Part shown: positions 27,542 to 32,603 of the stretch, in pieces
Layout of the letters: every line of letters begins with the position of its first letter
Numbering within the stretch: the stretch's first letter is position 1
NCBI GenBank assembly: GCA_945882415.1
Contig: CAMCWC010000010.1
Location: 1-64,000 of the forward strand
DNA length: 64,000 bases
Source: Chthonomonas calidirosea
GTDB lineage: Bacteria > Armatimonadota > Fimbriimonadia > Fimbriimonadales > Fimbriimonadaceae
Direction: 5' to 3'
Program-made: the position numbers and the translations under genes
Notes under the pieces: model-generated
What the model was told of the DNA's origin: nothing
Seen by the model: the letters and a program-made list of their open reading frames with translations, nothing else
Database searches by the model: none

Positions 27542-29680
27542 TTAGTCCGTGATCACATCCACTTCTGCGTAGCCGATCTCGTTGTTGCCGTCGGTGTTTC
27601 GAAGCGCTCGCAGCTTGATGTAGCGGCCCTTGGTTGCCGCGAATGGTTTGATCTGCCACACCCGATTGTTCTTGATGTTCGAGAACTCGCCTTTGTCCGC
27701 CAGCTTCCATTCGACGTTGTCGGTGGAGACATAGAACTCGTATTCCGCAATGACGCCGGGGCCCCACATGCCTTGGTCGGGGAAGTATTTGAATCCGGAG
27801 AGCGTCTTTTCCGCGCCGAGGTCAATCACTAAGTCGATGGGGAGCGTCTTGTCCCCTGGCTGCTTCCAAGAGGTGGCGGGGTTGCCGTCTAGGAGGTTGT
27901 ACGGATCGTTGCCGGTGACGCCGAGGATTTTCCAGTCCTTTCGGTTGATGTCGAACTTCTCGTGCATCACGGGGCTGAACTTGCCGGTGGATGGGTCAAA
28001 CGCGATGGCATTGACTTCGACTTTTCCATCGCCGGTCGGAACCGGGCCGGTGAAGCGGGGCGACTTTCCGGTTGGAGTCGTGCCGTCGAGGGTGTAGTAG
28101 AAGTGCGGGCCGACGTCGGCACTGGCGATCTGAACTTCCCCTTGTCGGTTGCGGGTGATGACCGGGGCATCGAGGATCAGCGGCGCGTTGAACAAGCCAA
28201 TCGAGGAGATCAGCGGTGCCGCATATGTGTCGGTGATCCTCAGGCGTACTTTGGTCGCGGTGACGGCTGGGAAGCGAAGAATTCGCTTGTAGCCGATGGT
28301 GCTTCCTCGGGCTACTTCCATCCACTTGTTGTCGACAAATGCTTCGACGCTGAAGCTTCGCACTCGCTGTCCAAGCGGGATGTACTCCTGCGCTTGGAAG
28401 CGGTTGAAGAGGGTCGGCTTGGCCAGATCTAGGGTTAGGGTTGCTTGCTTGACGCTGTCATCCGTCGCCCAGTAGGTGTCCTGCTTTCCGTCCGCCACGT
28501 TTTGTGGAGCGAACTGCATGGCTTCGCCGCGGGTGTTTGAGGCGGTGGCTTTCGCCTTGCTCGCGAGGTTAACGGCGAAGGTCTCCTTCACCACTTTGCC
28601 CATCTCGATCGCGTGTTTAATGTCGGTCGGGTGGATTTGGCCGTTCGGCATGATCGGGAAGTTGAGGAGGAAGGTGGCGTTTCGGCCGATGGAGGCGTAA
28701 TAGCTGTCCAGCAACTGCGGAACGGTTTTCACCTTGCCGTCCTCGCTGGGGTGATAGAACCACTCGGGGCGGATGGAGGTGTTGACCTCGGCCGGGACCC
28801 AGGCGTTGCCGCCTTCGAGCCCGAAATGCAGCATCGGCCAGGTGACCTCGCCCTTGGCGTCTAGGGTGCTCCAGTTGGTTTCGCCCACGTAGCCCGATTC
28901 GGTACCGACCCAGCGCAGGTCGCCGCGGTCTCCGCCGTCGTTCCAAATCACGATCTTCGGCTGGAGCTTCCGCACGAGGGCGTAGGTGTTGGCCCAGTCG
29001 TAGTACGTCTTTGCGTCGATCTTGCGGTTCTCGTTCGCGCCGCCGTAGTAGCCCGTTCCGCCGTTTGCGCCGTCAAACCAGACTTCGAAGATATCACCGT
29101 ACTGAGTGAGAAGTTCGGTGAGCTGTTTTCGGAAATAGGTGATGTACTCGGGTCGGCCGTAATCGGCGCGGTTTCGATCCCAGGGGGAGAGGTAAACGCC
29201 GAACTTGAGGCCGTACTCCTTGCAGGCATCCGCGACTTCCCGCACAAGGTCGCCCTGCCCTTTCTTCCAAGGGGCGTTCTTTACGGAATATTCGCTGTAC
29301 TTTGTCGGCCAAAGGCAGAAGCCGCTGTGGTGCTTAGCGGTGAGAATGACGCCCTTCATCCCCGATTCCTTGCAAACCCGCACCCACTCGCGGGCGTCGA
29401 GCTTGGTCGGGTTGAAGAGGTTGATGTCCTCGTTCCCAAATCCCCACGACTGATCGGTGTAAGTGTTCAGCCCGAAGTGGATGAAGGCGTAGTACTCCAT
29501 CTCCTGCCACCGCATCTGGTTCTCCGAAGGCACCGCCCCAAACGGCGCCGGCGGCTTAACCTGCCCGCTCGCGGCGCCGATGGTGAAGAAGCAAAAAAGG
29601 ATGGCGGCAAGGATGGTTGGGGTCATGGGTCTCGTGATCGCGACCAGCGGGTTGCGTTCAGTGCTGTTGGGCTGGTCCAT
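27542..29680 (-). CDS. Secreted alpha-L-fucosidase (GH29) with F5/8 type C domains
   Basis: 712 aa, signal peptide after a basic start. GH29 catalytic barrel about 45-370: WQEMEYYAFIHFGLNTYTDQSWG, LTAKHHSGFCLWPTKYSEYS, and the nucleophile aspartate in FEVWFDGANGG. Two discoidin-like (F5/8 type C) sugar-binding domains occupy about 390-500 and 585-710, with a chitobiase/hexosaminidase C-terminal-like module between (YYTLDGTTPTGKSPRFTGP). It releases terminal fucose from glycans outside the cell. Single gene; the next upstream gene is 420 bp away. Confidence 0.93.
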   Translation of the reverse strand: MDQPNSTERNPLVAITRPMTPTILAAILFCFFTIGAASGQVKPPAPFGAVPSENQMRWQEMEYYAFIHFGLNTYTDQSWGFGNEDINLFNPTKLDAREWVRVCKESGMKGVILTAKHHSGFCLWPTKYSEYSVKNAPWKKGQGDLVREVADACKEYGLKFGVYLSPWDRNRADYGRPEYITYFRKQLTELLTQYGDIFEVWFDGANGGTGYYGGANENRKIDAKTYYDWANTYALVRKLQPKIVIWNDGGDRGDLRWVGTESGYVGETNWSTLDAKGEVTWPMLHFGLEGGNAWVPAEVNTSIRPEWFYHPSEDGKVKTVPQLLDSYYASIGRNATFLLNFPIMPNGQIHPTDIKHAIEMGKVVKETFAVNLASKAKATASNTRGEAMQFAPQNVADGKQDTYWATDDSVKQATLTLDLAKPTLFNRFQAQEYIPLGQRVRSFSVEAFVDNKWMEVARGSTIGYKRILRFPAVTATKVRLRITDTYAAPLISSIGLFNAPLILDAPVITRNRQGEVQIASADVGPHFYYTLDGTTPTGKSPRFTGPVPTGDGKVEVNAIAFDPSTGKFSPVMHEKFDINRKDWKILGVTGNDPYNLLDGNPATSWKQPGDKTLPIDLVIDLGAEKTLSGFKYFPDQGMWGPGVIAEYEFYVSTDNVEWKLADKGEFSNIKNNRVWQIKPFAATKGRYIKLRALRNTDGNNEIGYAEVDVITD

Positions 29681-29840
29681 CGGCGGAGGTGTCGGCTACA
29701 GGGTCATTTTGGCCGGTTTAGCGTGGCAATCTGGAGGGAGCTGCATCCGTCTGGGCGAGTGAGGCGTAGATCAGGTTTCTAAAGATCAGTGTTCATTTCA
29801 CCGAGTTCTCTTCCTAGGAAAGTGTATGCAATCCAAGGGT

Positions 29841-29895
29841 TGGTGGACTATCCAGAGATTGAACCTTTGACTGCTACAGTCTAGTTTCTACCGCC
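29841..29895 (-). pseudogene. Decayed tRNA-Val-like remnant 1
   Basis: Lies in the 420-bp gene-free stretch 29681-30100. On aligning with the tRNA-Val at 31758, TGGTGG (CCA end), GATTGAACCT (T-loop), TGAC, CTACAGT (anticodon stem) and TCTACC (D-arm) all appear in order, but acceptor and T-stem pairing is lost. Probably a relic of the same tRNA. No other feature is seen in this stretch. Confidence 0.45.
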
Positions 29896-30100
29896 TGGAC
29901 GTCTGAAATAGTTGTTGCTAAGATTTATGCGCAACACAAAAGCGCTAGACGTGCTTTTAAGGCGGTGGCTACTTTCGAAAAGAAGTCCAGCATTTGAAAC
30001 TGCGCAAACTTGTGAACACTATGCTCCTCCTACGGGGAATCAGCCGATCCAAGCCGCGTCGAGCTGCCCCTAGTTTCGGTGATGTAAGGTTAATCACGAA

Positions 30101-30679
30101 ATGGATGCGTTTGAGCAGATCGTCAAAATTGTCTTGGAAGGACAAGGGTGGTGGGTTCGTCAGGGATATAAAGTACGTCTGACCAAAGAGGAGAAAGTAG
30201 CAATTGGGCGACCTTCTACACCTCGATGGGAAATTGATCTTTTGGCCTTCCAACCTGGAACGAACAGGCTACTAATTGTAGAGTGCAAATCCTTCTTGGA
30301 CTCTTTTGGAGTACGAGCGAGTGAGTTTATCGACTCTGATTTACCAACAAAGGGTCGCTACAAGCTCTTCAACGAAGCGAAGCTGCGCGAAGTTGTCTTC
30401 AACCGGCTAAAGGAACAACTCGTAACAGAAGGCTTGGGATTGCCGACTTCCTCTGTCGGCTTTGCAATGGCTGTGGGAAAATTCAAGTCTGCCGCTGACC
30501 GACAAGCGCTGCATGCTCTATTTGAATCTCGTGACTGGCAGCTCATTGACGATTTGCAGCTTCGAGAATGGGCATTGCAACTCTCCGAACGCGGGTACGA
30601 GGACAACGTCGCCACCATCGTAGCGAAGCTTGTCGCACCAGAAAGGACAAGGACCCGAAAGAGCCGTCAAGTTGAGTAG
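30101..30679 (+). CDS. Stand-alone PD-(D/E)XK nuclease-like protein
   Basis: 192 aa. The core WEIDLLAFQPGTNRLLIVECKS near 45-66 has the D...ECK pattern of the restriction-endonuclease-like fold, with an upstream glutamate near residue 4-13 in the first helix. Similar nucleases occur as Mrr-like or NERD-type proteins. No methyltransferase, helicase or specificity subunit is adjacent. The base composition is lower in GC than the neighbours, and the gene sits between two tRNA-Val remnants, suggesting transfer. Role could be defence or DNA processing. Confidence 0.65.
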   Translation: MDAFEQIVKIVLEGQGWWVRQGYKVRLTKEEKVAIGRPSTPRWEIDLLAFQPGTNRLLIVECKSFLDSFGVRASEFIDSDLPTKGRYKLFNEAKLREVVFNRLKEQLVTEGLGLPTSSVGFAMAVGKFKSAADRQALHALFESRDWQLIDDLQLREWALQLSERGYEDNVATIVAKLVAPERTRTRKSRQVE

Positions 30680-30771
30680 TACCGGAACCCTCTCCGCATG
30701 CTAACTGAATCTTCGGAAGGATTGCTTCTGGTGGTCGGGGGATGTTCGAGGGCCTGCGAAAGGTCTAAAAG

Positions 30772-30814
30772 TGGCGAGCGGTACAGGGATTGAACCTGTC
30801 ACCTCTACAAGTGT
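30772..30814 (-). repeat. tRNA-Val 3'-half remnant 2 (att-like)
   Basis: On the minus strand this reproduces the 3' half of the tRNA-Val at 31758, from the anticodon loop (ACAC) through the T-arm (ACAGGTTCAATCCCTGT) to the encoded CCA, with few mismatches. No 5' half is found nearby. Partial 3' tRNA copies of this kind are left at the far end of elements integrated into tRNA genes. It lies in the 306-bp gap 30680-30985, which otherwise holds only the PhyH promoter. Confidence 0.7.
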
Positions 30815-30946
30815 TTAAAGAGTTTGAAACCGAAGCCTCGAAAAAGTTGAATCCAAGGCGGCTGTGAATCTCTCCATCCCTACGAGCTATCTACAGTCCT
30901 CTAAACGAACCCACCACGGGTCTCGCCTTAGTCTGCACGCCTAGGA

Positions 30947-30975
30947 TTGACCCTAGGTGCTGCGCACACTATACT
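30947..30975 (+). promoter_or_regulatory. Promoter of the PhyH gene with CCTAGG repeats
   Basis: TTGACC (30947-30952), 17-bp spacer and TATACT (30970-30975), a strong sigma70-type match. CCTAGG occurs on both sides of the -35 (30940-30945 and 30952-30957), a spaced palindrome that could be an operator. Confidence 0.7.
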
Positions 30976-30985
30976 GAGCCGGACC

Positions 30986-31732
30986 ATGGAGGAAAACTCT
31001 AAGCTTGCGGAGCAATTTTGGGAGGAGGGCTTCCTCGTGCTTGACGGCTTTCTTGAATCCCTCAAGATGGATGAGCTTAACGAGTGCATCCTAGAGAATC
31101 TTGGCAAAGCGCCGGAGAACCTCCATTCGGATGAGTTCCTCGAAAGGTCGGGGGCCGACGTGGTGCCGTGGTTCCCTCAGCATCATGGGATCACCGCATT
31201 CGATGAAGTGGCCAACAACCCCCGGTTGCTGGAACTCACCACTGCGCTCCTCGGGCCAGAATGGCAAGAGCTTTACAGCATGGTGATGTTTTCGCGCCAG
31301 GGGAGCAAGGGGCAGTCTTGGCACCAAGACTGCCCACCCGAATTCCCTAGTCATTTCAACCTCAATCGTCTCGTCTACACCCACGACGTGACGCCCGAAA
31401 TTGGCGGGCAAACGGTCGTGGTTCCTGGGAGCCATCGGCAGGGGGTGATTCCGATCGGTGACCCAGATGGGGTGTTAGAGGGTCAGCATGTGCTGGAACC
31501 GAAACGGGGCACGCTGGTGCTCCTTCACGGCCACACTTGGCATCGGGTGTTGTCGGTCAAAGGCACCTATCGCGTTTCGACCAATTTTCGCGCATGCCCG
31601 CAGGGAGTTCCGAAGGATGTCACGGATGTGTGCGTTTACCGAAACATGCGCTATCGATTCTCCACCGGAGTATTCGTTGAAGATCGACTTGCCATGCCTG
31701 ATCGCGTTCAGACCGGCACACCGACGCATTAG
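30986..31732 (+). CDS. Phytanoyl-CoA dioxygenase (PhyH) family protein
   Basis: 248 aa from the ATG at 30986; an upstream TTG in frame is part of the -35 box. Fe(II)/2-oxoglutarate dioxygenase fold: the HxD pair in QSWHQDCPPEFPSH near 113, GGQTVVVPGSHRQG near 145 and distal GHTWHRVLS near 185 with a following arginine for 2-oxoglutarate. Members hydroxylate lipids, small metabolites or antibiotics. The substrate is unknown here. It lies alone between tRNA-Val remnant 2 and the tRNA-Val gene. Confidence 0.85.
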   Translation: MEENSKLAEQFWEEGFLVLDGFLESLKMDELNECILENLGKAPENLHSDEFLERSGADVVPWFPQHHGITAFDEVANNPRLLELTTALLGPEWQELYSMVMFSRQGSKGQSWHQDCPPEFPSHFNLNRLVYTHDVTPEIGGQTVVVPGSHRQGVIPIGDPDGVLEGQHVLEPKRGTLVLLHGHTWHRVLSVKGTYRVSTNFRACPQGVPKDVTDVCVYRNMRYRFSTGVFVEDRLAMPDRVQTGTPTH

Positions 31733-31757
31733 TGGTGGCCTGTTGAACCTAATTCGA

Positions 31758-31832
31758 TGGTGGGCGGTACAGGGATTGAACCTGTGACCCCTACAGTGTC
31801 ATTGTAGTGCTCTACCACTGAGCTAACCGCCC
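31758..31832 (-). tRNA. tRNA-Val (GAC)
   Basis: Minus-strand cloverleaf: acceptor GGGCGGT/ACCGCCC, D-arm GCTC-GAGC, anticodon stem CTACA/TGTAG with loop ATGACAC (anticodon GAC), T-arm ACAGG-TTCAATC-CCTGT, discriminator A and encoded CCA at 31758-31760. Partial copies of its 3' half lie at 30772 and 29841. Confidence 0.96.
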
Positions 31833-31910: not shown

Positions 31911-32522
31911 TCAGGCCGACTTGCGGCGGCGGAAGAAGCCGAGGGCGCCGAGGCCGAGGACGGCGAGGGAGGCTGGCTCTGGGACGGGGTTCGATGCGAC
32001 GACCGAGACGTTGTCGATGTGGCTGACGAGGCCGTTCGTGTAAGTCAAGAACTTGATCGTGCTGGCACCGGTCGCGGTGAATTCGAAGCTGTATCGCTTG
32101 GTGGTGTTGCCCGCTTCGTTGCCCTGGAGGTTGCTGCCGAAGGAAGTTCCGTTGACCATGAAGTCGACGCCGCCGTTGTACTGGGTGCCGCCGGTGTAGA
32201 CGTCGAAGCTGACGGTGTACTTTTTGCCTATCTGGGTGGCGAGGGTCTGTTCGATCCCGCTGCCGGCTTTATCCGACGTGCCGCTGAGGTCCAAGTGCTG
32301 GGTCTGTTGTCCGAGATAGCCGTTGCCGGTCAAGGTGACGTTTCGGCCGGATGGTCCGACGACGTTCCAGCCAGTAAGGCCGGTCGAACCCACGGCATAG
32401 TTCGTGGAGCCGCCAGACAAGGCGTTGGCTTCGAAGGTGCCGTTGATAACAAGGGATGCCTGAGCAGCAAACGGGAGAACGAGGGCAGACGCGGCAAAAG
32501 CGATTCGTGCAACAAACTTCAT
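31911..32522 (-). CDS. PEP-CTERM sorting-domain protein (DUF642-like)
   Basis: 203 aa from the ATG at 32520-32522. The frame extends much further upstream, but that part is antisense to the acetyltransferase. Signal peptide IAFAASALVLPFAAQA, then a jelly-roll-like domain (INGTFEANALSGG, GWNVVGPSGRN, HLDLSGTSDKAGSGIEQTL) resembling DUF642 or choice-of-anchor domains. The C-terminus NPVPEPASLAVLGLGALG-FFRRRKS is a textbook PEP-CTERM tripartite signal, cut and anchored by an exosortase encoded elsewhere. Probably a surface or matrix protein. Confidence 0.9.
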   Translation of the reverse strand: MKFVARIAFAASALVLPFAAQASLVINGTFEANALSGGSTNYAVGSTGLTGWNVVGPSGRNVTLTGNGYLGQQTQHLDLSGTSDKAGSGIEQTLATQIGKKYTVSFDVYTGGTQYNGGVDFMVNGTSFGSNLQGNEAGNTTKRYSFEFTATGASTIKFLTYTNGLVSHIDNVSVVASNPVPEPASLAVLGLGALGFFRRRKSA

Positions 32523-32603
32523 GATTAAAAGTATGGATGCCCGGGCCGTGACTTCCTGTACCCATTTCATGGTCACGCGAACCCGGTAGCTCAAAATGGA
32601 CGC

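Follow-up and report, generated by a model that had tools for sequence, protein, structure and literature searches.

The valine tRNA gene with a GAC anticodon in the window, which is the whole 64,000-nt stretch analyzed here from a member of the Armatimonadota (genome G000, 3.36 Mb in 38 contigs), is followed by two displaced and decayed copies of its own 3' end, which delimit two islets with one gene each. We consider it very probable that these two remnants result from stepwise site-specific integration at the 3' end of tRNA-Val, by elements whose integrases are gone. The first-pass annotation had also proposed stepwise integration at one tRNA, and this is supported both by a divergence that rises with the distance from the tRNA and by the presence of integrases at the tRNA-Val genes of relatives.

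The tRNA-Val(GAC) gene (31758-31832, minus strand) is intact according to ARAGORN and is identical at 75 of 75 positions in the sister species (G014). It is the proposed integration site, i.e. the former attB, now forming the attL side. A repeat search of the window places the tRNA and the two remnants in one direct-repeat family, with start-to-start distances of 931 and 986 bp, and both remnants lie downstream of the tRNA in its own orientation, consistent with the earlier claim of three copies in the same direction. In a local alignment, remnant 2 (30772-30814, minus strand) covers nt 34-75 of the tRNA, including the CCA, with five substitutions, one inserted base and a score of 31.5, as expected from the 3' half that had been reported there. 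It starts in the anticodon loop, which is one of the known crossover subsites within tRNA genes (PMC4383910). Remnant 1 (29841-29892, minus strand), again with the CCA, covers nt 17-75 with a 7-nt gap, a score of 24.5 and 80% identity across nt 36-75. The more decayed copy annotated at 29841-29895 is thus real and indeed more diverged, but it reaches further into the tRNA than a 3' half and ends at 29892. Since it extends to the D-arm, it could be a decayed copy of the whole tRNA.

The significance of these scores was estimated from 944 tiles of 130 bp, taken from both strands of the same window, for which the top score was 13. This formal alignment of the three copies, called for in the first-pass annotation, puts both remnants well above the background, including remnant 1, for which a score at chance level would have counted against that annotation. 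Chance matches were therefore rejected as an origin of the remnants, and so was a different tRNA, tRNA-Val(GAC) giving the best score among the tRNAs of the loci examined. Both remnants carry the T-loop variant AATC, which is also found in the tRNAs of the window species, of G014 and of G011; the other tRNAs of the family, read by eye, have AAGTCC. An intact tRNA gene accompanied by a 3'-end fragment, located downstream and in the orientation of the tRNA, is part of the Islander definition of a tDNA island, and both features are present here.

The islets are inserted between flanks that are common to the window and the sister species. On the outer side, an α-L-fucosidase gene (27542-29626, minus strand; PF01120, 1.6e-38) has its orthologue at the same place in the sister, with 92% amino acid identity, and the spacer upstream of it (29627-29755, minus strand) is old flank outside the islets, of which about 130 bp still align with the sister, only 1 of 500 shuffles being equally good. 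On the inner side, upstream of the tRNA, a PEP-CTERM protein gene (31911-32570, minus strand; PF07589) shows 88% amino acid identity with its counterpart, and the sister also keeps the acetyltransferase and amylase-like genes on this side, as well as the genes following the fucosidase on the other. The DNA homology between the two species on the tRNA side ends exactly at the CCA of the tRNA. Between tRNA-Val and the fucosidase, the sister has neither islet and no remnant, including beyond the 712-aa gene without Pfam match that occupies its slot (L009:4137-6275) and that is absent from G000. The tRNA-Val slot is therefore a variable site, but the sister does not offer a clean empty one, its slot being occupied, and no uninterrupted junction was found. 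A relative of the 712-aa gene, interrupted by two stop codons, is found in another genome (G006:C1:676641-678737), about 4 kb downstream of tRNA-Val.

The age of the remnants can be compared with the split between the two species. The divergence at fourfold sites between the window species and the sister ranges from 0.46 to 0.97 (JC) for seven neighboring genes, and half of this figure gives a per-lineage divergence of about 0.23-0.49. The divergence from the tRNA (JC) is 0.13 for remnant 2 and 0.23 for remnant 1, these being rough values from 42 and 40 positions, respectively. Under free drift of the remnants, remnant 2 would postdate the sister split, and remnant 1 would be as old as the split or younger. 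On the same assumption, and with the same roughness, the inner remnant is the younger one, which fits the order predicted by stepwise accretion at a tRNA.

The gene between the two remnants (30101-30679, plus strand) is convergent with tRNA-Val(GAC) and encodes a 192-aa protein without Pfam or PHROG match. Nevertheless, this protein contains a D46...E61-C-K63 motif, which is invariant in three homologues, and its residues 3-64 weakly match the Upx profiles of PADLOC (3.6e-4) and NCBIfam (1.8e-4). Its AlphaFold model (pLDDT 76) resembles the PD-(D/E)XK protein Upx (9wuf, Foldseek probability 1.00) and AF1548 (1y88). The D...E-x-K motif of the PD-(D/E)XK superfamily on its core fold is found in the sequence and the model taken together, so that the gene product is a predicted PD-(D/E)XK-type nuclease, in agreement with the initial assignment. 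Weak sequence and fold similarities also link it to the Upx anti-phage protein (PDB 9wuf; NF042954), which, however, has about 1,240-1,270 residues; the score of 18.8 bits is far below the cut-off of 1900 set for a full-length match, and the protein is not assigned to the Upx system.

The nuclease islet has a low G+C content (0.498, compared to 0.563 for the window), and the nuclease has a very restricted distribution. It is present in 2 of 291 Armatimonadota genomes, each time adjoining tRNA-Val(GAC) and in the same orientation, and was not found in any other member of the genus or family searched. The second genome (G060) is an SZAS-2 MAG, which belongs to another genus of the same family. 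Its nuclease, 72% identical at the amino acid level, is part of a defense-type island (JAFDWR010000003.1) and ends at most 50 bp from the tRNA 3' end. In contrast to the window, the far side of this nuclease is occupied by hsdM, a DUF5655 gene and hsdS, forming a type I restriction-modification operon transcribed away from it, and a search of the 20 kb around the nuclease revealed no displaced tRNA fragment. An orphan 3' half of tRNA-Val(GAC) (nt 32-75, 95%) does occur in this genome on a contig other than that of the tRNA (G060:C1:1090292-1090335; L076), with no integrase recognized among the neighboring ORFs. A more distant homologue (47%) is located on the Rhizobium plasmid pC6.5e, where its gene shares 8 bp with a CDS annotated as a tyrosine-type recombinase and has for neighbors genes annotated as retron-type HNH, ATPase, helicase and antitoxin. 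No relatives were found in phages or viral contigs. In our reading, the nuclease gene travelled as cargo of tyrosine-recombinase elements, and their integrase would have been lost here.

The second gene, between remnant 2 and the tRNA as indicated by the first-pass annotation, is located at about 30986-31732 (plus strand) and belongs to the PhyH dioxygenase family (PF05721, 3.4e-10; 41 bits compared to a gathering cut-off of 22). It is also convergent with tRNA-Val(GAC), its stop codon being 25 bp from the tRNA 3' end, and it is not present at this site in the sister. Its closest homologues are few (52%, 45% and 43% identity) and located elsewhere, none of those in G007, G015 and G011 being beside a tRNA gene. 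Conservation of the nuclease and PhyH genes at this site in relatives, which would have pointed away from integration, is thus not observed. The G+C content of the PhyH islet is ordinary (0.557, compared to 0.563 for the window), and its foreign status is deduced only from the fact that it lies between tRNA copies and is missing from the sister, which makes it less well supported as foreign than the nuclease islet.

The comparison of the region downstream of tRNA-Val across relatives, proposed together with the initial reading, reveals variable content and tyrosine integrases. Indeed, integrases of the PF00589 family are found just downstream of tRNA-Val in five genomes (G018, G019, G020, G021 and G038): those of G018 and G019 that sit at the GAC gene share 59% identity, and further tRNA-Val genes are occupied in G018, G020, G021 and G038. 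Displaced 3' copies of tRNA-Val occur 15-45 kb away in G018 and G038 and, by our own count, 12 of 12 partial 3' copies located on the contig of their tRNA-Val are downstream of it and in the same orientation. In G018, a 15-kb element lies between two complete copies of tRNA-Val(CAC) (G018:C3:233236-248401; L047), with an integrase adjoining the tRNA and a ResIII-type restriction gene. This element is likely an intact island of the kind left as relics in the window.

We hypothesize that tyrosine-recombinase elements integrate at the 3' end of tRNA-Val(GAC) in this family of Armatimonadota. A nuclease-bearing element would have entered first, its own tRNA end restoring tRNA-Val and the original 3' half being pushed outward to become remnant 1. 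A PhyH-bearing element would then have integrated at the restored tRNA, so that the first islet moved further out together with remnant 2. Each islet now measures about 0.9 kb with one gene: the integrase and the remaining genes may have disappeared later, or they may never have been carried, the elements having been mobilized by an external integrase. As already noted in the first-pass annotation, no integrase is left: no integrase or integrase gene fragment was recognized in either islet, the ORFs being those of PhyH and the nuclease, and the three PF00589 genes of G000 are all on contigs other than that of the window. The accompanying claim of a cargo of one gene each holds for the present state; nevertheless, one gene per islet is probably what remains after loss and not the original size, given that the nuclease of G060 borders a type I restriction-modification operon.

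Other histories of the site were weighed against this one. A single insertion between the tRNA and remnant 1, with remnant 2 being an internal copy of the attachment site or a later internal duplication, is one of them; no strain with only one islet was found, so that two events are not seen directly. We nevertheless regard it as unlikely, because the divergences of the two remnants are ordered as stepwise accretion predicts and the G+C content is not the same in both islets. The nuclease could also have been inherited vertically at tRNA-Val from the family ancestor and lost nearly everywhere, only the PhyH islet being recent. The shared tRNA, orientation and 72% identity in another genus are compatible with this, and synonymous sites are saturated, which does not indicate a recent transfer. 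Such a history is quite unlikely, given that the gene is missing from all other members of the genus and family searched, that its neighbors in the window genome and G060 are unlike, that remnant 1 has a base variant specific to the clade of the window species, and that its divergence is under that of the sister split.

Decayed tandem duplicates of tRNA-Val, between which the two genes entered later by other means, are suggested by the short tandem tRNA-Val-like copies that adjoin tRNA-Val genes in the genus (including G000:C8, G006 and G008) and by the part of the D-arm included in remnant 1. However, these tandem copies are 50-100 bp apart, compared to about 950 bp for the remnants of the window; most of them have a hairpin where the anticodon arm would be, which these remnants do not have; and the sister has none. 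As tandem duplication also gives no reason for this rare nuclease to adjoin tRNA-Val in G060 as well, we give it very little credence. Finally, the units of roughly 1 kb might be mobile themselves, as minimal cassettes whose single gene points toward the tRNA. An integrase encoded at some other locus would mobilize them, and they would accumulate in series at tRNA-Val, somewhat as cassettes do in an integron. The presence of the nuclease beside tRNA-Val(GAC) in two genera is compatible with this, as is an interval of similar size at tRNA-Val(GAC) in G008, about 1 kb long and also with one gene; we consider such cassettes highly improbable all the same.

Several other tRNA-linked sites were noted. 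The tandem tRNA-Val-like copies that have the hairpin TCCCG(A/G)...(T/C)CGGGA instead of an anticodon arm were observed at G000:C8:98963-99110 (L028, L103) and at L019, L023, L057, L104 and L106; among 291 Armatimonadota genomes, the exact hairpin pattern occurs 11 times, in 5 of them, and never more than about 400 bp from a tRNA-Val gene. Its stem shows matched changes, and some of these copies include only the 5' half of the tRNA, others only the 3' half. The survey of tRNA copies in G000, covering about half of its tRNA genes, identified a copy of nt 17-76 of tRNA-Ala with an altered anticodon arm (L087, G000:C7), which has the orientation of tRNA-Ala(CGC), lies 3.66 kb downstream of it and possibly marks a further islet. 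Exact 3' copies of 18 nt of tRNA-Glu(CTC), about 0.7 kb downstream (L097, G000:C11), and of 19 nt of tRNA-Lys(CTT), within 100 bp (L089, G000:C18), were also found. A tyrosine integrase gene (PF00589, 1.3e-14) starts about 120 bp downstream of tRNA-Ser(TGA) (G000:C7:131823-132540; L100), possibly representing an intact tRNA-targeted element. In G012, a 48-nt 3' copy of tRNA-Pro, 100% identical and 5.3 kb downstream of tRNA-Pro(GGG) (L018, G012:C45), is probably another recent islet in the genus.

The site represents an ordinary route of mobile DNA entry, its notable detail being a rare nuclease at the same tRNA in two genera. This undescribed family of small nucleases is tied to tRNA-Val sites in these genera and, in the plasmid case, to a tyrosine integrase gene. 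In a little-studied phylum, tRNA-Val appears as a recurrent entry point for foreign DNA, with relatives carrying restriction and other defense-related genes there, and displaced tRNA ends can order successive insertions once the integrases are gone.

Compared to the tRNA-Val islands of relatives (15 kb and 45 kb in G018, 16 kb in G038, and that of G019), the islets share the same tRNA, the same side and a similar extent of the 3' copy, whereas these islands keep their integrase and are at least 15 times larger. Islander maps genomic islands in tRNA genes, tandem arrays included, and drops candidates without integrase or shorter than 2 kb (PMC4383910). The window resembles Islander islands in its intact tRNA, its displaced 3' fragments downstream in the same orientation, its variable cargo and a crossover in the anticodon loop region, but differs from them in that its intervals are without integrase and each below 1 kb, or 1.9 kb together, compared to the 2-200 kb of Islander. 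Apart from integrase, size and an uninterrupted site, which the occupied slot of the sister does not show, the site fits the definition of a tRNA-gene integration hotspot, and the islets are best called relics of tRNA-targeted elements.
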